64,000 nt of DNA from Spirochaetae bacterium HGW-Spirochaetae-3 (GTDB lineage: Bacteria > Spirochaetota > Spirochaetia > Treponematales > UBA12059). The stretch lies in NCBI GenBank assembly GCA_002839315.1, contig PGXV01000004.1:224787-288786 (forward strand), read 5' to 3'. Under the pieces are notes generated by a model. That model made no database searches and had not been told where the DNA came from. It was given only the letters and a program-made list of their open reading frames with translations. A program made the position numbers and the translations under genes. Positions within the stretch are counted from its first letter, which is position 1, and every line of letters starts with the position of its first letter. Below, piece by piece: positions 33,102 through 57,480 of the stretch.

Positions 33102-33106
33102 CTTCT

Positions 33107-39035: not shown

Positions 39036-39064
39036 ATTGTACAGCGTAGCGGGGGGAAAGGCAA
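39036..39064 (-). promoter_or_regulatory. Candidate internal promoter before fliO
   Basis: In the 97-base gap after fliY, TTGCCT (39064-39059), a 17-base spacer and TACAAT (39041-39036) predict a start near 39029, about ten bases before the fliO ATG and just ahead of its ribosome site. It could boost export and placement genes independently. Confidence 0.45.
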
Positions 39065-39116
39065 CAAGTCTATGGATAATTAGGAAATAGGGAACCTCTC
39101 GGATCGAGTGGAACGC

Positions 39117-40274
39117 CTAGCTAAGGTCGGCCATCCGCTCCATCGGAGATACGATCTCGGTGACGCGTACGCCGAAATTCTCATCGATGACCACGACCTC
39201 GCCCTTGGCGATGAGCTTGTGGTTGACGAGTATGTCGACGGGTTCGCCGGCCAGCTTGTCGAGTTCTATTATCGTGCCTTCGCCTATACCCAGGATGTCC
39301 TTGATCAGTTTCTTCGTGCGGCCGAGCTCTACGGTGAGCTCCATGTATACGTCCATGATCAGGCCGATGTTGCCCGATTCCATGCCGGGATGGCCCAGGC
39401 CGAGGTTGGCGAACTGCACGGGTTGCACGTTGGGTTGGGCCATAACCGGAGATTGGTACATCTGCTGCTGGCCCATCATCTGCTGCTGGCCCATCATCTG
39501 CTGCTGGCCCATCATGGGCTGCTGATACATAGGCTGCTGATACCCCATCGCTCCTCCGCCCTGGGGCATCTGTCCCCCCGTCTGCATGGAGCCGCCGCCC
39601 ATCTGTTGCGGCGCGGGAGCCTGCATTCCCGAAGCGGCTACGATATCCTTGGCGAAAGCCTGAGAATAGATTTCCCACAGCTTGTACGGCGATCCGTCGA
39701 TCGTCATATCGTAGGCGACCCTGACGAAATCGCCAGCCGGGAAACGCGCGATAGCCTTGGGGCCGAACGCGCCATCGGCGACGTCTGACTGTATGGAACG
39801 ATTCCCCGATTTTTCGGTAAAAGCGTTGATAACGGATCCGGTAAGGCTGGATATGCACTCCGATACGACGGAGACGGCCATCTCGTCCAGGTCCGAGAGG
39901 GATTCATCCTGATTAGCCAGCGAGGCGATCTTCAGGGCGGCGTCCTTGGGTACCAGGAATAGATGATCGCCCGGGATGCCTCCTACCATATCGATCTTTA
40001 CGGCCAGCACCTCGTCGGGCAAGGAGGGGAGCATGCCGTCTCGGGTCGTGGAATCGGACTTGGGCGCCGAGAAGGTGGCGTCCTTACCGGTCATCATCGA
40101 TACGGTCTGGGCGTGCGTATCGCTGAGTTCCGCCAGTATGGAATTGAACGCCTTCAAATCCGCGGGCGCGAGCCCTGAAGCGGAGGCTTTCTGGGACGGA
40201 GAGCCGCCCGCGCTAGGATCGAGTCCCGCCAACAGGGAATCTATCTCGTCCTGGGAGAGAGCGCCGTCACTCAT
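39117..40274 (-). CDS. fliY: Flagellar switch protein FliY (FliN-type)
   Basis: FliY forms part of the C-ring. Residues 1-20 match the FliM-like CheY-binding peptide (GALSQDEIDSLLAGLD). About 30-220 resemble CheC/FliM middle domains. The C-terminal 300-380 is the FliN domain (LIMDVYMELTVELGRTKKLIKDILGIGEGTIIELDKLAGEPVDILVN). A Gln/Met/Pro-rich linker joins them and includes a tandem repeat. The start overlaps the fliM stop by eight bases. Confidence 0.93.
   Translation of the reverse strand: MSDGALSQDEIDSLLAGLDPSAGGSPSQKASASGLAPADLKAFNSILAELSDTHAQTVSMMTGKDATFSAPKSDSTTRDGMLPSLPDEVLAVKIDMVGGIPGDHLFLVPKDAALKIASLANQDESLSDLDEMAVSVVSECISSLTGSVINAFTEKSGNRSIQSDVADGAFGPKAIARFPAGDFVRVAYDMTIDGSPYKLWEIYSQAFAKDIVAASGMQAPAPQQMGGGSMQTGGQMPQGGGAMGYQQPMYQQPMMGQQQMMGQQQMMGQQQMYQSPVMAQPNVQPVQFANLGLGHPGMESGNIGLIMDVYMELTVELGRTKKLIKDILGIGEGTIIELDKLAGEPVDILVNHKLIAKGEVVVIDENFGVRVTEIVSPMERMADLS
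39462..39515 (-). repeat. Three perfect 18-bp tandem repeats inside fliY
   Basis: The unit ctgctgctggcccatcat occurs three times without a mismatch at 39462-39479, 39480-39497 and 39498-39515, followed by a decayed copy. In the protein this gives MMGQQQ repeats near residues 254-271, in the linker before the FliN domain. Unit length keeps the frame, so copy number can change without frameshift. Confidence 0.9.
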
Positions 40275-41301
40275 ACGTATCCTCACCTTCCGCGGCCAGT
40301 TCTTCGTATTCTTCCTGGCCGAGCTCCTCGAGCTTCTTGCTGATCTGTACTGCCATCTTCTTACCGATCACGCCAGGCCGGCACAGGAATTTCTTCTTGT
40401 TGCCGACGTTGAGTACCATGGGATCGTCTACCTTGACGTTATACAGCCTGATGATGTCTCCCAGGTTCAGGTTCAGGACGTCGCGAACCGTCACCTGTAT
40501 CCGGCCGATCTCGGCTATCACCGGCACGTCGATGGTGGACAGCTTTTCCTTGAGTATGTTCAGGTTCTCGGTCGTTGCGCCGCGGCGGACCGACGAGTAC
40601 CAGTACTGCGCCGATAGCTTCGAGATGATGGGCTCTATCGTCAGGTAGGGAATGCATAGGTTCATCATGCCCTCGACGTCGCCGATCTTCGTCTCCAGCG
40701 TCACGAGAACCACCATCTCGGTCGGCGGCACGATCTGGGCGAACTGCGGGTTCACTTCGATCTGGGACAGACGGGGACGGAGATCTATCACCTGGGTCCA
40801 GGCCTCGCGCAGGTTGCCGAGGATCTTGACGATGATGCCTTCCATGACGGAATGCTCGATATCCGTCAGTTCACGGGTGAGCTTGGATCCCTCGCCCGCG
40901 CCGCCGAACAGGCGGTCGATGATGGTGAAGGTCACCGCGGGATCGATTTCGAGGATAATCTGGCCCTTCAACGGGTCCATGCTGACGACCGCGAGGGTCG
41001 TGGTCGTCGGTATCGACCTTATGAATTCCTCGTAGGTAAGCTGATCCACGGAGGCGACGTGCACGTTGACGAGGATACGCAAGGACGCCGACAGGCTGGT
41101 CGTCGTAAGGCGCGCGAAGGTCTCGTGCATGTTCTGCACGGTACGCATCTGTTCCTTGGAGAATTTATCGGGGCGCCTGAAGTCGTATATCTTTATCTTA
41201 CGCGAATCGGTCGCCGACTGTACCGTCTCCAAGGACGTATCGCCGGCGTTGATGGCGGTGAGGAGCTGGTCTATCTCGTCCTGGGACAGGACTTCGGTCA
41301 T
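40267..41301 (-). CDS. fliM: Flagellar motor switch protein FliM
   Basis: FliM binds phosphorylated CheY and sets motor direction. The 344-residue protein begins with the CheY-binding peptide (EVLSQDEIDQLLTAIN), followed by the middle domain (RPDKFSKEQMRTVQNMHETFARL, DPLKGQIILEIDP, LFGGAGEG) and a C-terminal FliN-like domain. The start is ATG 41301; an upstream in-frame start lacks a ribosome site. Confidence 0.96.
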   Translation of the reverse strand: MTEVLSQDEIDQLLTAINAGDTSLETVQSATDSRKIKIYDFRRPDKFSKEQMRTVQNMHETFARLTTTSLSASLRILVNVHVASVDQLTYEEFIRSIPTTTTLAVVSMDPLKGQIILEIDPAVTFTIIDRLFGGAGEGSKLTRELTDIEHSVMEGIIVKILGNLREAWTQVIDLRPRLSQIEVNPQFAQIVPPTEMVVLVTLETKIGDVEGMMNLCIPYLTIEPIISKLSAQYWYSSVRRGATTENLNILKEKLSTIDVPVIAEIGRIQVTVRDVLNLNLGDIIRLYNVKVDDPMVLNVGNKKKFLCRPGVIGKKMAVQISKKLEELGQEEYEELAAEGEDTYE

Positions 41302-41370
41302 CTGTTCACTCCGCCTCACATAATTGCATAGAAAAACGCTTTTAGCAACGGCGCTATAGAATTCGCGACG

Positions 41371-41922
41371 CTACATCTGGTTCCGCGAGAACGTCTGGAA
41401 ATAGACGTCCTTTATCGCCGGCTTGGACAGCATGCGGTTGAGCATTTCCCGCAACTCCTCCTTGAGCTCGCGCTCGCGGTCCGGCATCAGGTACTCGATC
41501 TTCTTGGCGCTGAAGAAATTGCGCAACGCGTCCTGGATCTGGTACTTCCTCGCGGTGAGCTCGTTCTGGATCTCCTTGTCCGCGGCGTCGTAGGCCAGGT
41601 TGAGCTTTATCATCACCGACCACGGTTCCTTATCGATGGTGCTCGTGGTTATCTGGTCAATTGACGTGAAGGTAGCCCAGATAGGCGTGGCGCGCTGATA
41701 CTCCTCGGAGGTCGGTACCGTGGTCATCGGCTTGGCCTGCCTGTTCAGGAGGCTCACCGTAACGACGACGATGACGATGATGAAGATGACGGCTCCGAGC
41801 CCCATGGCGATCCATTTAAGGAGGCCGAGTATGGCCTTGCCGCCGCCCTTGCTCTTGGGCTTGTCGACGACGTCCGGAGTATCGCTGAAATCAGGCCCGC
41901 CCTTGTCGAAATCGTCGCTCAT
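41371..41922 (-). CDS. fliL: Flagellar stator-associated protein FliL
   Basis: FliL surrounds the stator and raises torque. The 183-residue protein has a short cytoplasmic tail, a membrane helix (about residues 35-58, WIAMGLGAVIFIIVIVVVTVSLL) and a periplasmic stomatin-like domain ending in the family pattern (LKEELREMLNRMLSKPAIKDVYFQTFSRNQM). GAGGAG precedes the ATG. A 69-base gap follows before fliM. Confidence 0.93.
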   Translation of the reverse strand: MSDDFDKGGPDFSDTPDVVDKPKSKGGGKAILGLLKWIAMGLGAVIFIIVIVVVTVSLLNRQAKPMTTVPTSEEYQRATPIWATFTSIDQITTSTIDKEPWSVMIKLNLAYDAADKEIQNELTARKYQIQDALRNFFSAKKIEYLMPDRERELKEELREMLNRMLSKPAIKDVYFQTFSRNQM

Positions 41923-41939
41923 TATGGTCTCCTCAGCCC

Positions 41940-42671
41940 TTACAGATGGCCTTCATCCAGAATTATAATGTCTACGCGCCGGTTATAGGCACGCCCCTCT
42001 TCAGTTGAATCGTCGGCTATCGGAACCGTCGCCGCCAGGCCCGAAACCTGGAACCGTTCCTCTGGAACGCCGAAATCGCTCAGGTAATGTAGCACGCCCA
42101 GGGCGCGAGCCGACGATAGTTCCCAGTTCGACTGCCACGGCCCCGCGGGATCGGTCGGAGAGGAGTCCGTATGACCCTCTATCCTGAACTTACGGCCGCG
42201 CAGCTCTTCCGATTTGAGCAGCTCCGATAGCCGGACGAGCATGGTCCTCGTCTCTTCTATATTTATGTCCGCGCTGGCGGGTCGGAAGAACGCGTCCGAG
42301 GCCAACGATATCACGATGCCGCGTTCGTCGGAGTTTATCCTGACCTTGTTCGACTTTATCTCCGGCTGGAACAGCGACACCGCCTTTTTCTTCGCGGTCG
42401 CGAGCATCTTGCCTTTTTCCATCGAGGGCAGGCTGTTGATGGAGTTGCCGAGCTCCGACATCCTGCCGACCGACAGGGTATTGCCGCCGGTGGACGAGCC
42501 CATGCCGATATTGTTGAGGCTCGATATCATCTGGTTGAGCTGGACGACGTCGACTTCCGTCGTGTCGAAGAGAGCGACGAAGAAGCACAGGAGCAGCGTC
42601 ACCATATCGCTGTAGGTGACGATCCATTCTCCGGTACCGCCTAGGCTCGTCTCTTTCTTCTTTCGCGCCAT
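41940..42671 (-). CDS. motB: Flagellar stator protein MotB
   Basis: MotB anchors the stator to peptidoglycan and carries the proton-binding residue. Asp22 (VTYSDMVTLLLCFFVALFD) is the conserved channel aspartate. The C-terminal half is an OmpA-type peptidoglycan-binding domain (FRIEGHTDSSPTD, SSARALGVLHYL, YNRRVDIIIL). It lies 12 bases after motA. Confidence 0.95.
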   Translation of the reverse strand: MARKKKETSLGGTGEWIVTYSDMVTLLLCFFVALFDTTEVDVVQLNQMISSLNNIGMGSSTGGNTLSVGRMSELGNSINSLPSMEKGKMLATAKKKAVSLFQPEIKSNKVRINSDERGIVISLASDAFFRPASADINIEETRTMLVRLSELLKSEELRGRKFRIEGHTDSSPTDPAGPWQSNWELSSARALGVLHYLSDFGVPEERFQVSGLAATVPIADDSTEEGRAYNRRVDIIILDEGHL

Positions 42672-42683: not shown

Positions 42684-43466
42684 TTACGACTGCGGATGCA
42701 GTTCTTCGAGTTTCTTCTGGCTATCCGGAGACAGGTACGAAGAAAGCTTCATCTGGAGGATGTGGGGATTGTCGCCCTGCTGTATCGACAGGACGCCCTC
42801 GATGATCATTTCCCTGACCTTCGTCTCGGCCGCGTCATGGCCGGCGAGCTTTCCCATCATCGGGGTAAACAGGAAGTTGGCCATCATGGCGCCGTAGTAG
42901 GTCGTAATGAGCGCCACGGCCATGTTCGGGCCGATACGGCTCTTGTCCTCGAGGTTCTTCATCATGGCTATGAGGCCCTGGACGGTCCCGAGCATGCCCA
43001 TACCCGGGGCGAGCTTGGCCCACTGGTCTATCATCTTGAGCCATCGGCCGTGCCGCTCGTTCATCTGGGAGAGCTCGGTCTCGAGTATATTCTTTATGAC
43101 CTCGGGATCGGTGGAGTCTACGACCATGCGGAGGCCGCGCTTCATGAACGCGCTATCGATGCCCTCTATCTCTTCCTCGAGGGACAGGATGCCTTCGCGG
43201 CGAGCGCGCTCGGACAGCGACAGCAGGGCTTCCGCTATCTTCATCTCGCCGAAATCGGGAATCCTGAACGCCATGCCGAAGATCTTGAAGATGCCCAAGA
43301 CTTCCTTGATGCTATAGTTGAGCATCAGCGCGAAGAAGGATCCGCCGATGGTCATCAGGGCGCTGGCGGGGTCGAGGTATGTAGTGACGACGCCGCCCGA
43401 GGCGTACATGGACGCGACTATGCAGAATAGTCCGGCGCTAAGGCCGATAATGCTAGCAAGATCCAT
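42684..43466 (-). CDS. motA: Flagellar stator protein MotA
   Basis: MotA forms the stator channel with MotB and drives rotation against FliG. The 260-residue protein has four membrane segments and a cytoplasmic loop with conserved Arg/Glu residues (SLSERARREGILSLEEEIE). Downstream conserved regions are APGMGMLGTVQGLIAMM and MAVALITTYYGAMMANFLFTPM. AGGAG precedes the ATG, three bases after flbD. Confidence 0.95.
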   Translation of the reverse strand: MDLASIIGLSAGLFCIVASMYASGGVVTTYLDPASALMTIGGSFFALMLNYSIKEVLGIFKIFGMAFRIPDFGEMKIAEALLSLSERARREGILSLEEEIEGIDSAFMKRGLRMVVDSTDPEVIKNILETELSQMNERHGRWLKMIDQWAKLAPGMGMLGTVQGLIAMMKNLEDKSRIGPNMAVALITTYYGAMMANFLFTPMMGKLAGHDAAETKVREMIIEGVLSIQQGDNPHILQMKLSSYLSPDSQKKLEELHPQS

Positions 43467-43469
43467 CCC

Positions 43470-43667
43470 CTACTCCTCGTTCTTGAACGCGCCGATGAGG
43501 CGGCGGTATTCTACGATCTTGTCTATCACGCCCTGTACGCCCTCGCGGACGGTGACGCGCTTGCCGGACAGCATCGCGATCGAAGTATCCGGCGTCCGCT
43601 CAATATACTCGATCTGATGCGGGTTTAGCCAGAATACGTCTCCGTTCAGCCTAGTAAGCTCGATCAT
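43470..43667 (-). CDS. flbD: Flagellar protein FlbD
   Basis: This 65-residue protein matches the small FlbD family of flagellar operons (MIELTRLNGDVFWLNPHQIEYIERTPDTSIAMLSGKRVTVREG). Its role is poorly known; family members bind next to the stator genes. The start is ATG 43667, five bases after GGAGG; the GTG two codons earlier would overlap the ribosome site. Confidence 0.85.
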   Translation of the reverse strand: MIELTRLNGDVFWLNPHQIEYIERTPDTSIAMLSGKRVTVREGVQGVIDKIVEYRRLIGAFKNEE

Positions 43668-43699
43668 CGTCACCTCCGCGCGTTACGGTCGTACCGGAA

Positions 43700-45091
43700 T
43701 TACCTCTTCAACGTCAGGAGCTCCTGAAGCATCTGGTCGGAGGTCTGTATCGTCTTGGAGTTAGCCTGGAAGCCGCGCTGCGTCACGATCATATCGGTGA
43801 ACTGCTCCGCCAGGTCTACGTTCGACATCTCGAGCGCGCCCGCTATCAGCTTGCCCTTGCCCGCTATGCCCGACGGCCCGATGTTCGCCATGCCCGAGTT
43901 GTTCGACGCGACGAAGTTCGTCTCGCCGGTCTTCTCGAGGCCGTTCGGGTTGGTGAAGGTCGCGAGCGCTATCTGGCCCAGGGTCCTCGTCGAACCGTTG
44001 GAATAGACGGCCGTGATCATTCCGGACTGGTCGATCTTGAAATTCTCGAGGTAACCCATGCCATAGCCGTCCTGCTCGAACACCTTGGTGCTCGAGGCCT
44101 CGGCGAACTGCGTGACGGTATTGCGAACGCTACCGGCGGTACCGAGGTTAAGGGAGAAGGTCTGCCTCGTCGGCGCCCCGCCCTCCCCGGCCGTGGCGTT
44201 CGCCACGTCGAAGGCGACGTTCATCGACAGGAGGCCTTCCTCGCCGGAGGGATTGCCCTGGCCGTCGGTTATCCGACGAAGCGTCCCGAGGTTATCGAAC
44301 TCCACGGTAAAGGTATTGCCCTGGAGCCCCTCGGGGTTGATGCCGACCGCGGGATTCGTCGGCGTCGCGGCCTCGGGATCGACGTTGACGGTCGCCTGCC
44401 ACTGGTTGGGCTGGCCGACGACGCGGGTAAACTCGACGCGCATGATATGCTGCTGGCCGAAGGAGTCGTAGACCTTCTCCTCGACGCGCCAGGTGCCCTG
44501 CCTGATCGTCTCGGCGGCCGCGCCCTCGGGTATCTCCGGCAGGCGCTTGTCGAGGTTGCAGGCGAGGAAGACCTGCTCGGTGGCGCGGGCGGGATCCTTG
44601 GATCCGACCGGTATGACGAGATCGTCGAGCGCTCCCGAGGTGTTGAGTATCTCGACGCCGTTGACGACCTGTGCGTTCCAGCCCTGGACGCGCAGACCGT
44701 TGCCGGGATTGACGAGGCGTCCCTCGGCGTCGAGGCCGAAGGCGCCGGCCCTGGTGAACAGGGTCTGGTCGCCCTTCGCGAGCACGAAGAAACCGTTGCC
44801 CTGGATAGCGAGGTCGGTCATGACGCCCGTCGTCTGCAACGAGCCCTGGGTATGGATCGTGTCGATAGACGCGATCGACATGCCGAGGCCGATTTCCTTG
44901 GGGTTGATACCGCCGACCTGGTCGGTAGGACGGGCGGCGCCGGACATCTGTTGGTACAGGAGGTCCTGGAAATTGGCGCGGCCCTTCTTGAAGCCGGTAG
45001 TGTTCACGTTGGCGATATTGTTGCCGAGCACGTCCATACGAATCTGATGGTTCTGGAGGCCGGCGACGCCTGAATACAATGAGCGCATCAT
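43700..45091 (-). CDS. flgE: Flagellar hook protein FlgE with lysinoalanine crosslink residues
   Basis: FlgE polymerises into the hook. The 463-residue protein has the rod/hook N-terminus ([38 protein letters not shown]) and C-terminus ([41 protein letters not shown]). Spirochaete hooks are joined by a self-catalysed lysinoalanine bond. Lys165, Cys178 and Asn179 are present in VGSKDP and FLACNLDK at the same numbers I recall from Treponema denticola. Confidence 0.96.
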
Positions 45092-45103
45092 ACTAGCGCC
45101 TCC

Positions 45104-45538
45104 TTACTCTTCGACTTTGCTGACCTGCTCGAGGTCATAGAACGAACCGTTCACCATAACGAGGGGGAATTCCCCGCGAACGACCTGCGACACCTTGCCG
45201 TATATCGCCTTCTCGCCGTCCAGCACCTCGACGGTCCGTCCGAGCAGGGACTGAGCCTCGCTGGAGTTGAGGACGCTGGACAGCTTGCCGAAACTCGACG
45301 CCATGTTGGTCATCTGCTCGAGCGACGAGAACTGCGCCATCTGCGCTATGAATTCCTTGTCCTGCATCGGGTTGGTAGGATCCTGGTGCTGGAGCTGCGT
45401 GATGAGTATCTTCAGGAAGTCGTCCTTGTCCAGGTCCGGCTTGAAGGCCTTGCCGCCTCCGAGTTCCTTGTTCAGCGTATCGACCTGGAGCCGCGTCCTC
45501 GCGGCGTCGGCCTGGCTCATCCTTAGGTCTATATCCAT
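45104..45538 (-). CDS. flgD: Hook-cap protein FlgD
   Basis: FlgD caps the growing hook so that FlgE can assemble. The 144-residue protein shows the family core (LDKDDFLKILITQLQHQDPTNPMQDKEFIAQMAQFSSLEQMTNM) and a short beta C-terminal part. It is shorter than E. coli FlgD and lacks most of the C-terminal domains. GGAG precedes the ATG. Confidence 0.93.
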   Translation of the reverse strand: MDIDLRMSQADAARTRLQVDTLNKELGGGKAFKPDLDKDDFLKILITQLQHQDPTNPMQDKEFIAQMAQFSSLEQMTNMASSFGKLSSVLNSSEAQSLLGRTVEVLDGEKAIYGKVSQVVRGEFPLVMVNGSFYDLEQVSKVEE

Positions 45539-45553
45539 GGATCGCTCCTTACC

Positions 45554-46780
45554 TTACACAATCACGTCTAGAAGGCCATCTCGGCCCGCCATCGCCAGCG
45601 GCGGCACGGCCGCGTCGAGCTCCTTGAGCGAACGGCTCCGATAGGGGCCGTCGCTTTCGGAGCCGTCCCCTCTATCCCCGCCCGTCCCCGAAGCCATACC
45701 GTTCCGTACCTCGACCTCGAGGGCGGTCGTCTCGAAGCCGCATTCGGCGAAGGCGTCTTTCAGCGCGTCTATAGACGAGCGGAACGCTTCTCCCGCGATA
45801 TCGGACTCCACGACGATCTTGCCGCTTATTTGCTTTTCGGCCATTTTCAGCTCTATCTTGACGCCTCCGAGCGATTCTGGCTCCAGGCGTAACCTGATGA
45901 TGCCGGAATTACCGTCTCGGAGGACGATCTGGGCCGAGCGTACGATATCCGCCGCCCCGTCTCGCAGGCGAGCCCCGAGCGAATCGGCGGAGGCCTGGGG
46001 CGTAGGCTCCGGGCTCGTGGCGACGGGAGAGCCTGCAGCCGAGCCTTCGTCGACCCTGGCCACGACGCGTCCGGCGAATGCCGAAGGATCGGCTTCCGCC
46101 TTGGTAGCGGATACGTTCCCCTTGGCGGTTTCGTCGCCGGTCTCGCCTTCGGGACGAGCCTTGGCGGAGCCGCGCTTGTCGGCGACGTCCCTGGCCGCCT
46201 TGAGCCGCATATCTACGACGGTCACCTTCGCGCCGCCCTCGCCTCGCTCTTCCCTCACCCCGAGACGCTCGATGCCAGATTCATTGTCGCCGTTCCCGGC
46301 TCGTCCGCCCGAGCCTGGATCGAGCCTTGACGACGCGGATTTGCCCGCCGCGGGGTTGAGCGCGGCCGCCACGAGCGAAGCGTCGAGCCCATCGGAGGCT
46401 TTTTCTGTTTTTCTAGGTCTTAGGTCCTTGCCCGTCTTCAGGGCCGAATCACGGGGCGACGCGTTCGATTTGATCGCTTGTCCATGGAAACCCGTTTCCC
46501 TAAGGCCCGAGTCGGCGGCCTTCGGGGAGGCTTTTCGATCGAGAACGGCGCGGATATCCCTCGCGATAGAAGCGCCCGAGGAAGGCTCTACGGGGACCTT
46601 TCCCCCGGAGACGGCCTTTCCATCGGTCGCGGGACGGGTCGTCGCCTTCCCCGAACGGAATCCGGCGAGTAGCTTGCTGAAAGGATTGTTCGTAGCGCCG
46701 GCCGCCTTCCCGGAGGGGGAAGCGCGGTTCTGGTTTCCGAGACCGCTCTCGGCGGCTACAATACGTGGTAGCGCCAGCAT
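45554..46780 (-). CDS. fliK: Hook-length control protein FliK
   Basis: FliK measures hook length and switches FlhB specificity. The first about 270 residues are disordered and rich in Ala, Gly, Lys and Asp. The C-terminal domain has the family core (GIIRLRLEPESLGGVKIELKMAEKQISGKIVVESDIAGEAFRSSIDALKDAF). The start is ATG 46780 after AAGGAG. A hairpin lies just upstream of the ribosome site. Confidence 0.88.
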   Translation of the reverse strand: MLALPRIVAAESGLGNQNRASPSGKAAGATNNPFSKLLAGFRSGKATTRPATDGKAVSGGKVPVEPSSGASIARDIRAVLDRKASPKAADSGLRETGFHGQAIKSNASPRDSALKTGKDLRPRKTEKASDGLDASLVAAALNPAAGKSASSRLDPGSGGRAGNGDNESGIERLGVREERGEGGAKVTVVDMRLKAARDVADKRGSAKARPEGETGDETAKGNVSATKAEADPSAFAGRVVARVDEGSAAGSPVATSPEPTPQASADSLGARLRDGAADIVRSAQIVLRDGNSGIIRLRLEPESLGGVKIELKMAEKQISGKIVVESDIAGEAFRSSIDALKDAFAECGFETTALEVEVRNGMASGTGGDRGDGSESDGPYRSRSLKELDAAVPPLAMAGRDGLLDVIV

Positions 46781-47492: not shown

Positions 47493-47945
47493 TCAAACAT
47501 TAAGAATGCCGGAAACGGCGCGCACGTGCGCCCCGGCGGCCAGATCATCCATCGTCTTGGTCTCTTCGCGGGAGACGACTTTATAATACGCCTTCTCCTC
47601 GCGCTCGCGCAGCTTCGCCACGAGCTGTTTCGACCTGCTCGCCTCTACGTACGCAAGCCTCGCCGACTCGCGTTCAGCCTCGGCGTAGGCCAGCGCCTTC
47701 ATGAGGCGCTCCCGTTCCTGCGACAGCCTGACGGAGTACAGCTCGCAGGCGCGATGGTCTGCCGCTCCGCTGCCGGGCTTGAATCGCTCCCTGCTCGTCG
47801 ATATCGTCAGCCGCGCGTTTTCCTCCAGGGAAAGCCCGAGCCTCGAGCAGGCCGCCGACTTCTCTCCGAGGGCGGCCTTCGCGACCGTCTCGCCATATTC
47901 CCGTAAATCAAGGACGCGCTGAAGCCTGAACGAGAATCGCTTCAT
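47493..47945 (-). CDS. fliJ: Flagellar export chaperone FliJ
   Basis: FliJ links the FliI ATPase to the export gate. The 150-residue protein is predicted to be nearly all coiled coil (KRFSFRLQRVLDLREYGETVAKAALGE, AYAEAERESARLAYVEASRSKQLVAKLREREEKAYYKV). Sequence conservation is low, but length, position after fliI and helical pattern fit. The ATG overlaps the fliI stop by four bases. Confidence 0.85.
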   Translation of the reverse strand: MKRFSFRLQRVLDLREYGETVAKAALGEKSAACSRLGLSLEENARLTISTSRERFKPGSGAADHRACELYSVRLSQERERLMKALAYAEAERESARLAYVEASRSKQLVAKLREREEKAYYKVVSREETKTMDDLAAGAHVRAVSGILNV

Positions 47946-49351
47946 ACCGCGTCTCCCGTTGAGGCCGCGTCGGCGACCTCCCTCGGAGGCGCGGATCGGT
48001 GATCCGGCTCGGCGAACGCGCTCAGCTCGGACGCCGGGATCGACAACCCGGCGATCTCTCCGAGGCGCTTTATCGTATCCGATATAGGCGCCTTCTCGTC
48101 TACCGCCTGTATCAGGAAAGATTCGATCGCCTGCCGCTTGGCTATCGCCTCGTCTATGCCGGGATTCGTGCCCTTGACGTAGGCGCCGATGTTGATCATG
48201 TCCTCGGATTCCTCGTATGTCGCCATCAGCCTGCGCACGGCGCCCATGGCCTTCTGGGTAATAGGCCCGGTGACGGCCTGGGAAAGGCGCGATATCGACT
48301 TGAGAACGTCTACGGCCGGGTAATGGTAGCGCTCGGCCAACTTGCGCGTCAGTACGACGTGCCCGTCCAGGATACCGCGCACGGTATCGGCGATGGGCTC
48401 GTCCATGTCGTCGCCGTCGACGAGTATCGTATAGACTCCGGTTATGGTGCCCTTCTTCGACGTTCCGGAACGTTCGAGGAGCTTCGGCAGGGAATCGAAG
48501 ACGCTCGGCGTATAGCCCCTCGTCGTCGGAGGCTCGCCTATCGCCAGCCCTATCTCCCTCTGAGCGCGGGCGAACCGGGTCACCGAATCGAACAGGAGCA
48601 GCACGTCGAGGCCCTGGTCCCGGAAGTACTCGGCGACGGCGGTAGCGACGTACGCGCCTCGGAGCCTGGCGAGCGGCGGCGTATCGGATGTCGACACGAT
48701 AAGTACCGAGCGCGCGAGTCCTTCCTCTCCGAGGTCGTTCTCCATGAACTCCCGGACCTCGCGCCCGCGCTCCCCTATCAGGGCGATAACGTTGACGTCG
48801 GCGTTGGTATTGCGCGCCATCATGCCGAGCGTCGTGGACTTGCCGACGCCCGACCCCGCGAAGATGCCGATGCGCTGGCCTCGGCCAAGGGGCAGTAGCC
48901 CGTCTATGGACCTGACCCCGGAGCTTATACGCTTATTGATACGCTTGCGCGTCATAGCGTCCGGAGGCGTCGCGATGGCCGGATAGTAATCGGGTGACGC
49001 GATGTCGCCTTTGCCGTCGGCCGGCCGGCCCATCGAATCGAGCACGCGCCCGAGCAGTTTCTCCGAGACGGGCACGCGGAGCATCTCCCCGGTCGCTATG
49101 ACGGAACAACCTACCTCGATACCGTCGAGACCGGAATAGGCCATCAACTGCACGGTATCCCCGCGGAGGCCAGCGACCTCGGCCCAGGCGACGGTACCGA
49201 GCCTGGGTATAAGGATCTGGCACAACTCTCCGACGACGGCCTGCGGGCCGCGGCTCTCGACGAGCAATCCCTGGACCTTGACGACGCGCCCCGTGTACTT
49301 GATGGGGTCGGAACGCTCTACCGCGTCCAGGTACTTCCCGATAAGGTCCAC
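47942..49351 (-). CDS. fliI: Flagellum-specific ATPase FliI
   Basis: FliI is the export ATPase, related to F1-beta. The 469-residue protein has Walker A GSGVGKST at 166-173 and the family segments GERGREVREFMENDLGEEGLARSVLIVSTSD and LLFDSVTRFARAQREIGLAIGEPPTTRGY. It starts at GTG 49351, just after the fliH stop. The C-terminal tail is longer than usual and Ala/Asp-rich. Confidence 0.97.
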   Translation of the reverse strand: MDLIGKYLDAVERSDPIKYTGRVVKVQGLLVESRGPQAVVGELCQILIPRLGTVAWAEVAGLRGDTVQLMAYSGLDGIEVGCSVIATGEMLRVPVSEKLLGRVLDSMGRPADGKGDIASPDYYPAIATPPDAMTRKRINKRISSGVRSIDGLLPLGRGQRIGIFAGSGVGKSTTLGMMARNTNADVNVIALIGERGREVREFMENDLGEEGLARSVLIVSTSDTPPLARLRGAYVATAVAEYFRDQGLDVLLLFDSVTRFARAQREIGLAIGEPPTTRGYTPSVFDSLPKLLERSGTSKKGTITGVYTILVDGDDMDEPIADTVRGILDGHVVLTRKLAERYHYPAVDVLKSISRLSQAVTGPITQKAMGAVRRLMATYEESEDMINIGAYVKGTNPGIDEAIAKRQAIESFLIQAVDEKAPISDTIKRLGEIAGLSIPASELSAFAEPDHRSAPPREVADAASTGDAV

Positions 49352-49354
49352 GGC

Positions 49355-50272
49355 CTATTGCGCCTTTCCGCGCGACTTGATAGGGGAAATGTCGAGTATC
49401 TTCTCCTCCAGCTCGTGGAGCTGGCTCTGTATGCGCGCGTCTATCTCCCCGAAATCGGTCTCGATGATACAGCCGCCCCTGTCGACGCCCGAATCCTCGA
49501 CGATGGACAGCTTCTTGGCGTTCTCCGCCGCCTCGATGAAGTCCTTGGCGTGCTCCGTAGTCAGCTGAAGGTCGGCGAGGTTGACGCGCACGATGACGTC
49601 GCTCCTCGTCTTCAGCTTGCGCAAGGCCTGGGCGATATTGGAGAGTACGACGTTCTTCTGATTCTCGGAGATGGTCTTGACGACCTTCCTGGCGATAAGC
49701 AGCACCAGCTCGACCACCTGCGCCTCGGTCTGCTCGAGTATCTCGGCGCGCTTGTCCATCGCGCGGTCCAGGACCACGTGCATGCGGTCGATCAGTCGCT
49801 CGACCTCCAGCTTGCCTTCCTTGAACCCTTCTTCGCGTCCCTGGTCGAAACCTTCCTTGTGCGCGTCCTTGGTCACTTCGTCGACGCGTGCCTTGGCCTG
49901 CACCTCGAAGGCCTGTATCTTGGCTTCCGCCTCTCGGATCGCCTTCTCGGCCGCCGATTCCGCGTCATGCCGTATCTTGAGCGCCTGGTCGTTCTTGCGC
50001 TTGACTTCCTCGAAGGCCGCGGATTCCGCCTTCGCGACAATATCCTGGGCCTCGGCGCGGGCCGCGGCCATCATCGCGTCCTTCTCGCGCTCCCAGTTAT
50101 GCTTGAAAAGCTCCGCCTCGGCCCGAAGATCGTCGGCCGTCGGCCCTTCGTATTCCATGACGGGCGCGACGTCCTCCAGCTCTTCGATGGCCTGGTCGCC
50201 GCCCGGCGCGTGGAGCACGTACGCGCTCGTGAGGTGGACGGTTTCCTGGGGCCTGAATACGGTCTTGGCCAT
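49355..50272 (-). CDS. fliH: Flagellar export regulator FliH
   Basis: FliH holds FliI at the export apparatus and the C-ring. The 305-residue protein has a short N-terminal region, a long charged coiled coil (about 60-160, many Ala/Glu/Lys) and the conserved C-terminal domain (DEVTKDAHKEGFDQGREEGFKEGKLE, ARKVVKTISENQKNVVLSNIAQALRKL, VRVNLADLQL). It lies between fliG and fliI. Confidence 0.93.
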   Translation of the reverse strand: MAKTVFRPQETVHLTSAYVLHAPGGDQAIEELEDVAPVMEYEGPTADDLRAEAELFKHNWEREKDAMMAAARAEAQDIVAKAESAAFEEVKRKNDQALKIRHDAESAAEKAIREAEAKIQAFEVQAKARVDEVTKDAHKEGFDQGREEGFKEGKLEVERLIDRMHVVLDRAMDKRAEILEQTEAQVVELVLLIARKVVKTISENQKNVVLSNIAQALRKLKTRSDVIVRVNLADLQLTTEHAKDFIEAAENAKKLSIVEDSGVDRGGCIIETDFGEIDARIQSQLHELEEKILDISPIKSRGKAQ

Positions 50273-50285
50273 ACGCTACCTTTTC

Positions 50286-51365
50286 CTATTGGATCAACTG
50301 GTCGTCCTCGCCGCGGGCGATGATGATCTCGCCCGTGTCCTCGAGGTGACGGATAACCGCGACTATCTTCTGCTGGGCTTCCTCGACGTCCTTTATACGT
50401 ACCGGCCCCATGTATTCCATGTCTTCCTTGAGCGCCTGCGCGGCGCGCTTGGACACGTTCTGGAATACCTTCTCCTGGACCTCCGTATCGACGCCCTTGA
50501 GGGCTCGGGTGAGGTCCTGCGTGTCGACCTCGCGGATGACCTTCTGGATAGAACGGTTGTCCAGCATGACGATGTCCTCGAATACGAACATCTTCTTCTT
50601 GATCTCCTCGGCGAGCTCGGGATTCTCCTCCTCGAGCGCCTCCAGGATGCCTTTCTCCGTCGTACGATCGGCCAGGTTGAGTATCTCGACGATCGCGTCG
50701 ACTCCGCCCGCCGCCGTGTAGTCCTCGCTCGACAGCGTGGACAGCTTCTTCTCGAGCACGCGCTCCACCTCGCGCAGCACTTCCGGCGACGTGCGGTCCA
50801 TCGTCGCGATACGCTTGGCTACGTCCGATTGGTGCTCCTTGGGAAGCTTCGTCAGGATGTAACTGGCCTTATTGGGCTCCAGGTACGCGAGGATCAGCGC
50901 TATGGTCTGCGGATGCTCCGTCTGGATGAAGTTGAGGAGGTTGGCCGGGTCCGTGCGACGTATGAAGTCGAACGGCCTGACCTGGAGGGAACTGGTCAGG
51001 CGGTTGATGACGTCTATCGCCTTCTGGGATCCGAGCGCCTTCTCGAGGAGCTCGCGCGCGTAGTCGATGCCGCCCGAGCTTATGAACTCGCTCGCCATCA
51101 TCAGCTCCTGGAACTCCATCAGGATGGCGTCCTTGAGCTCGGGCTCCACGTTCTCGAGCCGCGCTATCTCGAAGGTCAGCGTCTCGATCTCGTCCTCGCG
51201 CAGGTGCTTGAATATCTCGGCCGATATCTCGCTCCCGAGGGTGATGAGGAAGATGGCGGCCTTCTGCCGGCCGTTCAGGTCCTTCGCGCTCTTCGGCTTC
51301 TTTCCCGGCGAGCCGGAAGGTCCGGCGCCGGACGACTTGCCCTTGGCGGGGGCGGCTTGAGGCAT
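50286..51365 (-). CDS. fliG: Flagellar motor switch protein FliG
   Basis: FliG contacts the stator and transmits torque. The 359-residue protein has the three ARM-type domains: LNGRQKAAIFLITLGSEISAEIFKHL at about 30, the EHPQTIALILAYLEPNKASYIL region, and the C-terminal FVFEDIVMLDNRSIQKVIREVDTQDLTRALKGVD with conserved charged residues. Spirochaetes carry two FliG proteins; only this operon copy is in the window. Confidence 0.97.
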   Translation of the reverse strand: MPQAAPAKGKSSGAGPSGSPGKKPKSAKDLNGRQKAAIFLITLGSEISAEIFKHLREDEIETLTFEIARLENVEPELKDAILMEFQELMMASEFISSGGIDYARELLEKALGSQKAIDVINRLTSSLQVRPFDFIRRTDPANLLNFIQTEHPQTIALILAYLEPNKASYILTKLPKEHQSDVAKRIATMDRTSPEVLREVERVLEKKLSTLSSEDYTAAGGVDAIVEILNLADRTTEKGILEALEEENPELAEEIKKKMFVFEDIVMLDNRSIQKVIREVDTQDLTRALKGVDTEVQEKVFQNVSKRAAQALKEDMEYMGPVRIKDVEEAQQKIVAVIRHLEDTGEIIIARGEDDQLIQ

Positions 51366-51368
51366 CTA

Positions 51369-53075
51369 TCACTCCTCCCTGAGCCAGGTCCGGATGAGCT
51401 GGGCCACGTCCTCGGGGTGTTCCTTGGCCATGTTGATGGCGTGCTCCTGAAGGTCCAGGCGCTTACGCTCCTCCACGGACATGGATACCTCGATGTTCTG
51501 CTCCTCCGCCTGCCGTATCGCGTTCTCCCTGAGCATCTGCTGCTCCAGGGCCCGCTTCTCCTCGGATATCCTGCGTCTCCGTTCCAGTTCCCTCGACGCG
51601 AGCCTGAACACGATGAACGCGACGAGCAGGAACGCGACGCCTATCAGCGAGTACAGGATCACCTTGTTCGTCTGCTGGCGCCGCAGGAAATCGGCGTCCT
51701 CGCTCTTGAACTGGACGCTCCGGTCGAACTGGATATTCCGCACGGTGACCGAGTCGCCGCGCATCCTGTCGTAGCCTATGGCGTCCCGCACGAGCGCCGC
51801 GGCGGCGTCGAGGTCGGCCTGGTCCACGGCTATATACTCGCGAACTATGCTGCCGTCCGGCCCTACGTCCAGCTCTCCCTTGTCAGTATACTTCCACTTC
51901 CAGACTCCGTCGATATTTACCGATACCGTAACGCGGTCTATCGTCGGCGAGCGCTCTTCCACGCTGGCGCGCTTGTTCAACGCCTCGTTCTGGATCTCGT
52001 GCGTCTGTACGGCCTTGCCGACCATGTTCTGCAGGTCCTTGTAGGCGGGGGCCGTCTGTCCCTCGACGCCAGCAGGCCCTTCGGGGTTGAAGCCGGTTCC
52101 CTGATACTCATAGCTCGTCTTCTCCGTGGACAGCGTGACCGACGGCTGGATAACCGAGTCGTCGTACGGCGTTATCGGGTTGTCTTCCTTGAGCACGAAC
52201 GGGAAATGCTCCTCGGTGGACACGCTCTTCTTGCTCATGTCCATGTCGATCTTGATGTTGAGGTCGCGGACCCGGTCGGAGGTATAGATCTGCTGTAGCG
52301 CCTTGAGCACGGCGGCCCGGTAGTAGGCCTCCTGCTTCTGAACCAGCTGCTGCTCCCGTTTCGTGCGCTCGATGCGGTCGAAGTCCTCGAGTCCCGCGAA
52401 GTCGTTCAGCTGGAGGCCGTTCTGGTCTGTGATGACGATATTGTCGTCGGTTAGCCCGGTGACGGCGAAGCGTATGATCTTCTGGACGCCCTCGAGCTTC
52501 TTCCTGTTGGTCGTGATGTCGGAGCCCGGCTTGGGATACAGTATTACGCTGGCGGTCACCTGCTTCTGGTCGGCCGCGAACAGCTTGTCCTCCGGCAACT
52601 CCAGTACGACGTTGGCCTTGTCGATATCCGCGAGCGACTCGATGTGCTTGGTCACTTCCTGGATGATCGCGTTGCGCAGGTTGATGTCGCGCTCGAAGTT
52701 GGTCACCGTGAACTGGTTTATGGCGAACACCGCCCAGGGGTCGGTACCCCTCGGTATCAGGTCCTCACGGAGCAGTATCGCGTTCGCGCGCGCCCTCGTC
52801 GGCTCGTCCTTCACGTAGAGTACGTTACCCTCGCCGAGGTCGAAGGGGATTCCTTCCTCGTCGAGCCTGCTCGTTATCAGGCGGAGCTCGTCGTCGGACT
52901 TGATGGGCGTGTTTATGAGACGCACCTGCGTAGGGGCGCCCGAGACGGAGACGAGAACGACGACGCCGGCGATGACGGCGACGACGACGCCGGCGAGGAT
53001 CAGCTTCTGGACGATGCCCCACGAACCCCACAGGGACTTGAGGCGATCCATCGTTTTCTTAAGCCATTCGTTCAT
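51369..53075 (-). CDS. fliF: Flagellar MS-ring protein FliF
   Basis: FliF builds the MS-ring around the export gate. The 568-residue protein has a first membrane helix (about residues 20-42), ring-building motifs (AVFAINQFTVTNFERDINLRNAIIQEVTKHIESLADIDKANVVLELPE), a second membrane helix (about 467-490) and a C-terminal FliG-binding tail (MAKEHPEDVAQLIRTWLREE). GGAGGGG precedes the ATG. Confidence 0.97.
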   Translation of the reverse strand: MNEWLKKTMDRLKSLWGSWGIVQKLILAGVVVAVIAGVVVLVSVSGAPTQVRLINTPIKSDDELRLITSRLDEEGIPFDLGEGNVLYVKDEPTRARANAILLREDLIPRGTDPWAVFAINQFTVTNFERDINLRNAIIQEVTKHIESLADIDKANVVLELPEDKLFAADQKQVTASVILYPKPGSDITTNRKKLEGVQKIIRFAVTGLTDDNIVITDQNGLQLNDFAGLEDFDRIERTKREQQLVQKQEAYYRAAVLKALQQIYTSDRVRDLNIKIDMDMSKKSVSTEEHFPFVLKEDNPITPYDDSVIQPSVTLSTEKTSYEYQGTGFNPEGPAGVEGQTAPAYKDLQNMVGKAVQTHEIQNEALNKRASVEERSPTIDRVTVSVNIDGVWKWKYTDKGELDVGPDGSIVREYIAVDQADLDAAAALVRDAIGYDRMRGDSVTVRNIQFDRSVQFKSEDADFLRRQQTNKVILYSLIGVAFLLVAFIVFRLASRELERRRRISEEKRALEQQMLRENAIRQAEEQNIEVSMSVEERKRLDLQEHAINMAKEHPEDVAQLIRTWLREE

Positions 53076-53125: not shown

Positions 53126-53521
53126 TCATCTCGTATTGATGATATCCTTCCATGCCCTGACCACGCGGTCGAGCACCGTACGGGTGATGTTCAAGGACAT
53201 ATTGGCCTTGGCCATCGCTATGGTCACGTCATGCGCGTCTACGGAATCGGGATCGATGAGCATCGCCTCCATGGCGTTGGAGCTGTCCGCCTGCGCCGCG
53301 TTGACTCCGTCCATCGCCTTGAGCATCGCGTCCGCGAAGCTGGCCCGCTTCTCCTGACCGAGCTCGGGCGTCCCGCCACCCGTCGCGAAATGCCTCGGAT
53401 CGAGGCGCGACAGCTTCAGCTTGTCGCCGCCCGTTGGCGTGGCGCCGGTCAGCGAGCCGCCGGCCACGGACTGAACGCCTATCTGGCTCGATACGCCCGG
53501 TATTCCGAATAGCGTCGACAT
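53126..53521 (-). CDS. fliE: Rod/MS-ring junction protein FliE
   Basis: FliE joins the rod to the MS-ring. The 131-residue protein has the conserved C-terminus (KRASFADAMLKAMDGVNAAQADSSNAMEAMLIDPDSVDAHDVTIAMAKANMSLNITRTVLDRVVRAWKDIINTR). The N-terminal 45 residues are extra and polar, so it is longer than usual for the family. It lies three bases after flgC. Confidence 0.95.
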   Translation of the reverse strand: MSTLFGIPGVSSQIGVQSVAGGSLTGATPTGGDKLKLSRLDPRHFATGGGTPELGQEKRASFADAMLKAMDGVNAAQADSSNAMEAMLIDPDSVDAHDVTIAMAKANMSLNITRTVLDRVVRAWKDIINTR

Positions 53522-53524: not shown

Positions 53525-53983
53525 CTACCGTCCTATCTCGAGGGCCTTCATGAACATGGCCTTGGATCCGTTGGCTATGGCCGCGTTCGCCTCGTAGGCC
53601 CTCGACGCGGCAATCAGGTCTACCATCTCCGTCACGACGTTTACGTTCGGATACTCGACGTATCCGGCGCGGGGGCCGGTCTGGATGGCGTCCGGGTGCG
53701 TCGGATCGTAGACGAGCCTCGTCTCGGCGGCGTAGTCCTTCTGGACCTCGGATACCCTGACGCCGTCGCCGGCGCCTCCGTCCCACTGGTCGGGAAGGAA
53801 CGGCAGCCGGAAGTACGGCGTATCGGTCCTCGGCCGCAGCACGACTCGGCTACGCCGGAAGGGACCGCCCTCGGGGGTACGGGTCGTCGACTGGTTCGCG
53901 ATGTTGTCGGCGATTACGTCCTGGCGTAGCCGCTCCGCGGTCATTCCCGTAGCCGCTATATTTATGCTCGTGAACATTCCCAT
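53525..53983 (-). CDS. flgC: Proximal rod protein FlgC
   Basis: FlgC is one of the rod subunits. The 152-residue protein has the rod N-terminus (FTSINIAATGMTAERLRQDVIADNIANQSTTRTPEGGPFRR) and C-terminus (YPNVNVVTEMVDLIAASRAYEANAAIANGSKAMFMKALEI). GAGGT precedes the ATG, nine bases after flgB. Confidence 0.96.
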   Translation of the reverse strand: MGMFTSINIAATGMTAERLRQDVIADNIANQSTTRTPEGGPFRRSRVVLRPRTDTPYFRLPFLPDQWDGGAGDGVRVSEVQKDYAAETRLVYDPTHPDAIQTGPRAGYVEYPNVNVVTEMVDLIAASRAYEANAAIANGSKAMFMKALEIGR

Positions 53984-53992: not shown

Positions 53993-54412
53993 TTATTTCA
54001 GGACCTGGTTGACCTGGTTGAATTCGAAGGCGGTCGCCTGCGTCATGAGCGTGTATCGCAGCTGGTTCTGCATCGCGGCCATGAATTCCTGCTCGGCATC
54101 GACGTTGTTGCCGTTGTTCTTTGACGTCGACAGGTAGTCGAGCACCCGCCTCGGGGTCACGTCGCGCCAATCGCTGCGCTTCCACGACGCTATATGGCCC
54201 GTCTCGCTCGTAGCCAGCTGAAGGCGCGGCTCGCTCTTCTCGGAATCGATGGCCCGCTTCAGCGACGATTCGAAGTTGATCTCCGATCGCTTAAAATTCG
54301 GCACGTCGGCGTTGGCGACGTTATTGCCGATAACCTCGTAGCGCAGTACGGAAACGTCCATGCTGCGCTGCAAGAGGTCTATCGTCCTACCGAACGTCGT
54401 ATTCTCAAGCAT
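53993..54412 (-). CDS. flgB: Proximal rod protein FlgB
   Basis: FlgB is the first gene of the flagellar segment. The 139-residue protein has the family N-terminus (LQRSMDVSVLRYEVIGNNVANADVPNFKRSEINF) and C-terminus (NNVDAEQEFMAAMQNQLRYTLMTQATAFEFNQVNQVL). GGAGGTGG precedes the ATG by a few bases. A candidate sigma-28 promoter lies about 50 bases upstream. Confidence 0.96.
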   Translation of the reverse strand: MLENTTFGRTIDLLQRSMDVSVLRYEVIGNNVANADVPNFKRSEINFESSLKRAIDSEKSEPRLQLATSETGHIASWKRSDWRDVTPRRVLDYLSTSKNNGNNVDAEQEFMAAMQNQLRYTLMTQATAFEFNQVNQVLK

Positions 54413-54462
54413 CGGTCCACCTCCATGGGACAGCCGTAAACCGGCGCGCCCCTCACCTTCAC

Positions 54463-54489
54463 TTATCGGCCCGTTATCGCGGGCTTGTA
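54463..54489 (-). promoter_or_regulatory. Candidate sigma-28 promoter for the flgB operon
   Basis: On the minus strand TACA (54489-54486), a 15-base spacer and GCCGATAA (54470-54463) closely match the sigma-28 consensus TAAA-N15-GCCGATAA. A start near 54456 gives a leader of about 44 bases. A GC hairpin overlaps the spacer. Confidence 0.6.
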
Positions 54490-54623: not shown

Positions 54624-56024
54624 CTATAATATGAACTTGGCCAGGTCTTCGGATTCGAACACGCCCTTGAAGCGACCGTCGACGAATTCGGGCGTGATCC
54701 CGACCTTCTGGCCGCTCATCTCAGGCGCGTCGAACGATACTTCCTCGAGCAGCCGTTCCATGATCGTATGCAATCGCCTCGCGCCGATGTTCTCGGTCTG
54801 GGAATTGGCCTTCTCGGCCACCGAAGCCAATCGCTCGACGGCGGCTGGCGAGAACGACAGCTCGACGCCCTCGGTGCTAAGGAGCTGGGTATACTGCGTC
54901 ACGAGGGCGTTCTCCGGCTCGGTCAGGATGCGGACGAAATCCGACGCCGACAGGGCCTCGAGTTCGACGCGGATCGGGAAGCGGCCCTGGAGCTCCGGGA
55001 TCAGGTCCGACGGCTTGGACACGTTGAAGGCGCCCGCGGCTATGAACAGCACGTGGGTCGTATCCACGACTCCGTACTTCGTCGTGACCTTCGAGCCCTC
55101 CACGATAGGCAGGATGTCCCGCTGGACTCCCTCGCGCGACACGTCCATGCCGCCGCCCGAGCGACCTTCGCGCGTGGCGATCTTGTCTATCTCGTCGATG
55201 AACACGATGCCCGACTGCTCGACGCGTTCCCTGGCCTCGGCGGACGCCCGGTCCTTATCGACGAGGCGGTCCGATTCTTCCTCGAGTATGATACGCCTCG
55301 CGTCCTTTATCGCTACGTTCCGCTTCTTCTTCTTTCCGCCGAAGATGTTAGCCAGGCCGGAGAAGGCCGATTCGAGGTCCTCCATCTGCTGCCCTGCCAG
55401 CATCTCTATCGACGGCGTCGCCTGGGCCGAGACCTGCACCTCTACTTCCTTGTCCTCGAGCGTGCCGTCGCGGAGCATCTTCCGGAATTTCTCCCTGGTA
55501 TCGTTACCCTTAGAGGGCGCGATCACCGGGCTTGCCCAGGTATCGGGGCGCGCGTCGGCGGTGCTCGCCTGCGCAGGCGCGTCGGGTTTCGGGCCGAGAC
55601 CGGGCAACAACAGGTCGAGAAGCCGCTCTTCGGTGCGCTTTTCAGCGTCGTCCTTGACTCTCGCGGCCATCTCTTCCATCACCATCCGGTACCCGGCGGC
55701 CATCAGGTCCCGTATCATCGATTCGACGTCGCGGCCGACGTAGCCCACTTCGGTGTACTTGGTCGCTTCCACCTTGACGAAGGGCGCATCGCACAGCCTG
55801 GCGAGCCGCCTCGCGATCTCGGTCTTGCCTACGCCCGTCGGGCCTATCATAAGGATATTCTTGGGAGCTATCTCCTCGCGGGCGGCTTCGGGCAGCAGCT
55901 TGCGGCGCAGCCTGTTACGCAGTGCTATAGCGACGGCTCGCTTGGCCTTGTTCTGGCCGATGATATAGCGGTCGAGCTCCTCGACCACGCGCCGGGGCGT
56001 GAATACCTGGAAATCTTCCTTCAC
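54624..56024 (-). CDS. hslU: HslU, ATPase of the HslUV protease
   Basis: HslU unfolds proteins and feeds them to HslV. The 466-residue protein has [29 protein letters not shown] at the start, Walker A GPTGVGKT at 61-68, an inserted I-domain (about 110-270), Walker [12 protein letters not shown] and the C-terminal segment ending KFIL that inserts into HslV. It starts at GTG 56024 in a GTGA overlap with hslV. It is the last gene before the flagellar block, as in Borrelia. Confidence 0.97.
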
Positions 56025-56557
56025 GGGAGCTCCTCCACGAGTATCCTGTCGTTGGTATAGATGCATATGCCGCCGGCTATGCCGAGGCTGCGCTTGGCTA
56101 TCTCGGCGGCTGACAGGTCGCTGGTATCGAGGTATGCGAGCGCGGCGGCGTAGGCGTAGTTGCCGCCCGAGCCTATCGCTATCGCGTCGCCGGCGGGCTC
56201 TATGACGTCGCCGGTACCGGACAGCAGCAGGGTCTTCTCCTTGTCGGCGACGAGCAGTAGAGCCTCGAGCTTGCGAAGCATCTTGTCGGTACGCCAATCC
56301 TTGGCCAGTTCTACAGCCGCTCGGGTCAGGTCGCCCTGGTATTCCTTTATCTTGACCTCGAAATGCTCGAGCAGCGTGAAGGCGTCGGCGGTGGCGCCGG
56401 CGAACCCCGTCAACACCTTGCCGTCGTAGATCGTACGCACCTTGCGCGCGTTGCTCTTCATGACCGTCTCGCCCATGGTCACCTGGCCGTCGCCGGCCAT
56501 CGCGACCTTGCCGTCGCGCCTCACCGCTATTATCGTCGTGCTCCGAATCTTCGTCAT
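56021..56557 (-). CDS. hslV: HslV, peptidase of the HslUV protease
   Basis: HslV is a bacterial proteasome-like peptidase. The 178-residue precursor has the catalytic Thr at residue 7 (MTKIRS then [23 protein letters not shown]), exposed after removal of six residues, plus the family segments [30 protein letters not shown] and [17 protein letters not shown]. Start and stop overlap the neighbours by four bases. Confidence 0.96.
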
Positions 56558-57480
56558 CTCGTCTTCCCTCCGGCGGCCGCATCGCTACCCGCGTGGGTCG
56601 CGTGCGGATGAGCCCCGTCGTACACCGAGCGTAGCCGCGCGATGTCGACGTGCGTATATATCTGAGTCGTAGAGATATTCTCATGCCCCAGCAGGGCCTG
56701 TACGATACGTATGTCGGCTCCTCGCCCCACGAGGTGGGTCGCGAAGCTATGCCTGAATCCATGCGGCGACAGGCGCTTTCCCTGGCCCGAGCGAACGGAG
56801 CGCCGTTCGACGATGTACGCGATGCCGCGCGCCGAGAGCGGACCGGACTTCGCGTTGAGGAACAGCGTGGACGCCGCGGACTCCGAGTCGAGCCTGGCCG
56901 ACCGATACGGCAACCAGGCGCGGATGGCGTCGACGGCCTTGCCCGACAGGAAGACGGTACGCTGCTTGGAGCCCTTGCCCGTGACGCGCGCGTGCCCCGC
57001 GGGAAGGTCGACGTCGGCCAGGGCTAGCCCAGCCAGCTCCGAGACGCGGCAGCCGGTGCTGTACAGCGTCTCGAAGATTGCCCGGTCGCGCGCTCCGGCG
57101 AACCCGTCGCCGGACGCGCTCTCTATCAGCTCGGCCATCTCGCCTTCGAACAGGAACGACGGCAGCGTCCTGGCCAGGGGCAGGGACTCGACGTCCTTTG
57201 CCGGATTCGCTGCTACCTTGCCGAATCGCACGAGATAGCGATAGAAGCCTTTGACCGCCGACAGGGCGCGGTTGATCGAGCTGGACTGGTACCCGTCGCG
57301 GACTAGTCCCGCGACGAAGGACCTGGCGTCGGCCGGGGTCGCCGTCTCCGGCGAGCATCCGCCGAGCCGGCACGACGCCTCGTAGAGCCGCAGGTCGTCC
57401 CTGTACGCCTCGACCGTCCGCAGTGAAAGCGAACGGATCGCGCTCAGGTAGGCCAGGTAGGCCTCAATCGACGTTGACAT
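56554..57480 (-). CDS. xerC: Tyrosine recombinase XerC-like
   Basis: Xer recombinases resolve chromosome dimers at dif. The 308-residue protein has an N-terminal SAM-like domain and a catalytic domain with Arg ([11 protein letters not shown]), His-x-x-Arg ([12 protein letters not shown]), Gly-His ([11 protein letters not shown]) and Tyr (IYTHVD). It overlaps topA by 17 bases. A second Xer gene lies four genes upstream in the same run, so the two may be partners. Which is XerC and which XerD is judged by position only. Confidence 0.87.

Follow-up and report, generated by a model that had tools for sequence, protein, structure and literature searches.

In the usual description of spirochaete flagella, sigma-28 (FliA) is reserved for the filament and other late genes, and two published accounts assign it to these genes (PMC12655853, PMC5243855). 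A window of 64,000 nucleotides from Spirochaetae bacterium HGW-Spirochaetae-3 contains a sigma-28-type element in front of flgB, the proximal rod gene, which heads a run of flagellar genes extending to fliA. This raises two questions: whether the element is a promoter that brings rod genes under FliA, and whether it closes a positive loop.

The run is formed, in this order, by flgB, flgC, fliE, fliF to fliJ, an unnamed gene, fliK, flgD, flgE, motA, motB, fliL, fliM, a fliN/fliY-type gene, fliO, fliP, flhB, flhA, flhF, an flhG-like gene, another unnamed gene and fliA. All of them are on one strand, with gaps mostly below 100 bp and the largest, between flgE and motA, of 233 bp; fliQ and fliR are expected within 36400-37500. 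The start of fliA lies about 24.25 kb downstream of flgB on the same strand, in agreement with the 25 kb originally given. The upstream neighbours on this strand are topA, xerC, hslV and hslU. The nearest named relatives are uncultured spirochaetes. The hslU stop codon is 211 bp from flgB in this genome, and the distance is at most 100 bp in many relatives. The order xerC-hslV-hslU upstream of the flgB operon is shared with Bacillus subtilis, where it continues with codY; in this genome, flgB follows hslU with no codY in between. The genes are as follows.

29372..30160, minus strand: fliA, sigma-28 (TIGR02479, 291.6 bits, cut-off 189.6)
30977..31843, minus strand: flhG-like MinD-family ATPase (MinD models and place after flhF)
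31923..42671, minus strand: motB, fliL, fliM, fliN/fliY-type gene, fliO, fliP, flhB, flhA, flhF (Pfam)
42684..46780, minus strand: fliK, flgD, flgE, motA (Pfam)
47493..53075, minus strand: fliF, fliG, fliH, fliI, fliJ (Pfam)
53126..53521, minus strand: fliE (TIGR00205)
53525..53983, minus strand: flgC (TIGR01395)
53993..54412, minus strand: flgB, proximal rod protein, first in the run (TIGR01396, 123.5 bits, cut-off 59)
54624..56000, minus strand: hslU, the gene preceding the candidate promoter (TIGR00390, open-frame residues 255-712)
56021..56557, minus strand: hslV (TIGR03692)
56554..57480, minus strand: xerC-type tyrosine recombinase (best model TIGR02224, 316.6 bits against a cut-off of 335)

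Read on the minus strand from 54489 to 54463, the element consists of TACA (54489-54486), 15 nucleotides and GCCGATAA (54470-54463), and 50 nucleotides separate its end from the flgB ATG at 54412. It shares 11 of 12 positions with TAAA-N15-GCCGATAA, and thus its description as one base off the sigma-28 consensus, 50 bases before flgB, holds. The -10 box, including the invariant CGA core, is exact in this genome. The -35 box retains three of the four bases of TAAA at a spacing within the range of 14-16 nucleotides, and may also be read as TTAC with a spacer of 16. Its register drifts between N14 and N16 even inside the genus, whose members combine a perfect -10 box with an imperfect -35 box; across the class the -35 box is TAAA-like and its register variable.

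54463..54470, minus strand: -10 box of sigma-28 type, GCCGATAA (CCGA core nearly invariant class-wide)
54486..54489, minus strand: -35 box of sigma-28 type, TACA, spacer 15, the weak half of the candidate promoter
54427..54452, minus strand: genus-specific 5' leader stem-loop between the -10 box and the Shine-Dalgarno box (z -2.0)

No dinucleotide shuffle out of 200 of the 150 bp upstream of flgB in this genome reached the score of the element (p 0.005). In a test of 90 genomes, the 150 bp preceding flgB were scanned for TAAA-N14-16-GCCGATAA, and the top-scoring site was compared with shuffles. The mean best scores, out of 12, were 9.83 against 7.63 in the family of this genome (Fisher p 5e-13), 10.16 against 8.10 in family f3 (Fisher p 8.5e-16) and 10.00 against 8.07 in family f5 (Fisher p 4e-8), all these Fisher and combined p values being optimistic since the genomes are mutually related. 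Among 79 named loci, a set overlapping that of the 90 genomes, 56 have a score of at least 10 within 110 bp of flgB, compared with 1/79 on the other strand, 3/79 for the reversed pattern, 0/79 inside flgB and 0/76 inside hslU, and this bears out the conservation in relatives that was to be expected of a promoter. The element recurs ahead of orthologous flgB genes at 57-89% FlgB identity, and beyond the genus the surrounding intergenic DNA is, by eye, otherwise unalignable. CCGA is nearly invariant across families, and the other positions of the -10 box deviate in a manner typical of the family, with GCCGATG in half of f5 and GCCGAAAA in most of f3. Against reading the element as a promoter stand the imperfect -35 box in this genome, its drifting spacing, and families such as f14, f15 and f18, where the regions upstream of flgB score no better than shuffles in the 90-genome test.

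At 12 of the 48 good loci, the -35 box of flgB opens with the TAA stop codon of hslU (L203, L209, L216-L219, L221, L222, L228, L230, L231, L247). A CTCCGTGTCTCCGTGCCTCCGTGG-type repeat has copies in the stretch from hslU to the flgB promoter in several relatives (L004, L006, L009, L011, L013, L014).

The cognate sigma factor is encoded in the run itself, and of 80 genomes 76 encode a FliA that passes the family cut-off. Of the other four, one is a fragmented assembly and three are the genomes of f7, which are taken as Borreliaceae-like from their small size and the loss of FliA. The f7 genomes show no sigma-28 element ahead of flgB in the 90-genome test, no clear element before flgF (scores 9 and 8) and no FlgM; sites and sigma factor have been lost together. 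These losses agree with reports that Borrelia has neither sigma-28 nor sigma-28 promoters (PMC4032328) and that the flgB-headed superoperon of flagellar genes in B. burgdorferi has a sigma-70 promoter ahead of flgB (PMC11607428). A further small genome (G032, 1.1 Mb), from the family of the f3 Treponema-like genomes, encodes FliA but gave no FlgM match at E 0.001, and few members of its family have poorer elements before flgB and flgF.

Candidate promoters of the same type precede other flagellar genes. In this genome, TAAA-N16-GCCGATAT lies upstream of flgM, TAAA-N15-GCCGATAG upstream of one flaB gene, and the same motif ahead of an flgN-like gene followed by flgK. The second rod operon, flgF-flgG, has TAAA-N16-GCCGATAC 23 nucleotides before flgF (G000:C14, L294:1501-1527, minus strand). 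A score of at least 10 occurs before flgM in 34 of 38 genomes (control 1/38) and, with f7 left out, before flgF in 19 of 28 (control 0/30). The genome-wide list of TAAA-N15-17-CCGATA is barely enriched, with 14 sites against 11 for the control, and therefore only gene-start sites recurring in genus members were taken as evidence. Since the flgF site, like the flgB site, is found class-wide, both rod operons carry putative sigma-28-type promoters across the class. The flgF-flgG operon had escaped the original prediction.

From these comparisons we consider it highly likely that the flgB element is a functional FliA promoter, feeding the run that contains fliA; in this genome FliA very probably transcribes both rod operons in addition to the late genes. 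We propose the following model, conditional at every step from use of the site by FliA to the gain and timing of the loop. Firstly, FliA cannot begin from zero, and hence a start-up source is needed: a low level of FliA would have to come from elsewhere, probably from hslVU read-through or from a promoter that escaped recognition, and would be held in check by FlgM. The gap from hslU to flgB showed neither a sigma-70 site nor, on this strand, a terminator; read-through is thus possible, and that it provides the initial transcription is our guess. Secondly, FliA, once freed, would activate the filament, hook-associated and flgM genes. Finally, it would also boost the two rod operons: RNA polymerase with FliA would start a few bases downstream of 54463 and transcribe flgB-flgC-fliE-fliF...flhF-flhG...fliA as well as flgF-flgG. 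The circuit would then have a positive arm, from FliA to flgB...fliA, and a negative arm, from FliA to flgM. All families are compatible with FliA acting as a booster of rod genes.

It is almost an even question whether the promoter, though real, boosts the operon only in a minor way, the main drive coming from a sigma-70 promoter or from xerC-hslVU read-through, so that its deletion would ordinarily matter little, as in swrA+ B. subtilis. The fla/che operon of that bacterium has a sigma-D promoter, PD3, before flgB, and sigD is its penultimate gene; feedback through PD3 has been demonstrated, with an effect visible in the absence of SwrA (PMC3874003). The likeness lies in a sigma-28-family promoter before flgB as first gene and a sigma gene near the far end of the operon, and PD3 behaves as a minor booster would. 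In paired genomes the flgB sites, with their family-specific deviations, match the consensus slightly less well than the flgM sites (means 10.05 and 10.61, paired Wilcoxon p 0.009), as expected for a booster. The gene upstream of flgB, hslU, has the same orientation, and no terminator was found on that strand in the gap. However, the sigma-A promoter PA of B. subtilis is both necessary and sufficient, whereas our consensus scan, which may be insensitive for this phylum, found no sigma-70-like site within 53500-55500. The hslU-flgB gap of many relatives is so short that the sigma-28 element is the only recognisable promoter in it, and the strong conservation of the -10 box suggests more than a marginal role. 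The geometry differs too: the PD3 deletion spans 184-302 nucleotides before flgB, while the site described here is 50 nucleotides away and in some relatives overlaps the hslU stop codon.

The original prediction of a positive loop, in which the site locks in flagellar expression through fliA in cis, is possible as the selected function, although we lean against it. The site does head a run encoding the sigma factor, which is presumably co-transcribed, being on one strand with small gaps only, and in 14 families flgB and fliA share a strand at a distance of 22.7-26.8 kb, the few exceptions being fragmented assemblies. In a T. denticola-like genome (G027), TAAA-N16-GCCGAAAA lies about 40 nucleotides ahead of the fliK/tap1 run; f3 and f5 gave a mixed outcome for such a second site, which was unseen in most of f5. 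However, fliA lies elsewhere in all the genomes tested of f3 (24) and f5 (12), several of them single-contig assemblies, and the flgB element is kept there; thus a loop in cis is not the sole selected function. The flgF-flgG operon, which does not contain fliA, has the same promoter type. What stands of the prediction is that a positive loop is plausible where fliA is linked, given use of the promoter and a single transcript.

It is improbable that the conserved GCCGATA is the site of another regulator or an RNA element rather than a sigma-28 -10 box. The degenerate -35 half would allow this, and within the genus the downstream leader is conserved as well, with AAGGTGAGGG and a stem-loop (z -2.1 to -3.8 in individual folds of the other genus members). 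However, the two-block motif with a spacer of 15-16 nucleotides also heads flgM, flaB, flgN and flgF and vanishes together with FliA in f7, and the leader stem-loop was not seen in most genomes of f3 and f5, where the -10 box remains. The stems differ in sequence from one genus member to another, and in a covariation check a sequence-based alignment gave no single consensus helix. As the stem-loop rests on single-genome folds, it was left out of the promoter evidence.

That the flgB element is a chance match has a negligible probability: the genome of 3.88 Mb contains two matches to TAMA-N14-16-GCCGATAA and likewise two to the reversed pattern, so this count alone is unremarkable, but position and conservation ahead of orthologous flgB genes in the 90 genomes and 79 loci make the element significant and rule out a chance origin.

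The reading of the element as a FliA promoter places it in a known type of circuit, whose class-wide variant adds a second rod operon and has no recognisable companion promoter. A sigma-28 promoter ahead of early rod genes, which had been put forward as exceptional, is very probably real, while its singularity was overstated, given PD3 of B. subtilis. Some papers of the 1990s on treponemal fla operons reportedly describe sigma-28-like promoters there. A literature search reaching few subscription journals retrieved no spirochaete study that places flgB or flgF under FliA. The flaB2 gene of T. denticola has an experimentally mapped promoter of sigma-28 type, to which preliminary data tie FliA (PMC9481697). 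It resembles our sites in its consensus (TTAA / CCGATAA), in the presence of FliA and FlgM and in coming from a spirochaete; that report, in the portion available, concerns the flagellin gene and leaves the flgB and flgF operons unaddressed. In flgE and motB mutants of T. denticola, hook-operon proteins fall alongside flagellins (PMC6930189), which is compatible with checkpoint control of such genes. In Leptospira, the available portion of a start-site study lists only flaA1, flaB1, flaB4 and fliS as predicted sigma-28 flagellar targets, and maps the flgB start of L. interrogans 12-13 nucleotides before the gene without assigning a sigma factor (PMC5243855). Clostridioides difficile also has sigD inside a large operon with flgB first; unlike here, the flgB start is mapped to a SigA-type promoter 261 nucleotides upstream, SigD affects flgB only slightly, and the predicted SigD-type sites are internal, before motA and fliQ (PMC3865298).

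A broader generalisation, which we offer tentatively and consider rather unlikely, is that in Spirochaetia other than Borreliaceae FliA would be the common sigma factor of the rod, hook-associated, filament and flgM operons instead of one for late genes. A separation of early from late genes by sigma factor would then be largely absent, and rod synthesis would stand behind FliA/FlgM control, with basal FliA from hslVU read-through. If both rod operons are driven by FliA class-wide, the FlgM checkpoint would feed back on the flagellar base, and Borreliaceae, on losing FliA, would have needed a sigma-70 promoter in place of the earlier one before flgB, as reported there.

Near the flagellar run, positions 22818-24173 (plus strand) encode an NtrC-type response regulator with a sigma-54 activator domain, which could occupy a higher place in the flagellar hierarchy. 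At 372-399 of the window (plus strand), TAAA-N16-CCCGATAC lies about 20 nucleotides before the gene of a TPR protein (419-1789) with an Mrr_cat-like C-terminal match; it is possibly a further FliA target, possibly a chance match. Sigma-28-type sites also occur directly ahead of genes for exported proteins (L295:1501-1527 and L297:1501-1525, both on the minus strand), one followed by a weakly RlpA-like protein and the other a long repeat-rich protein, and these may be new FliA targets.
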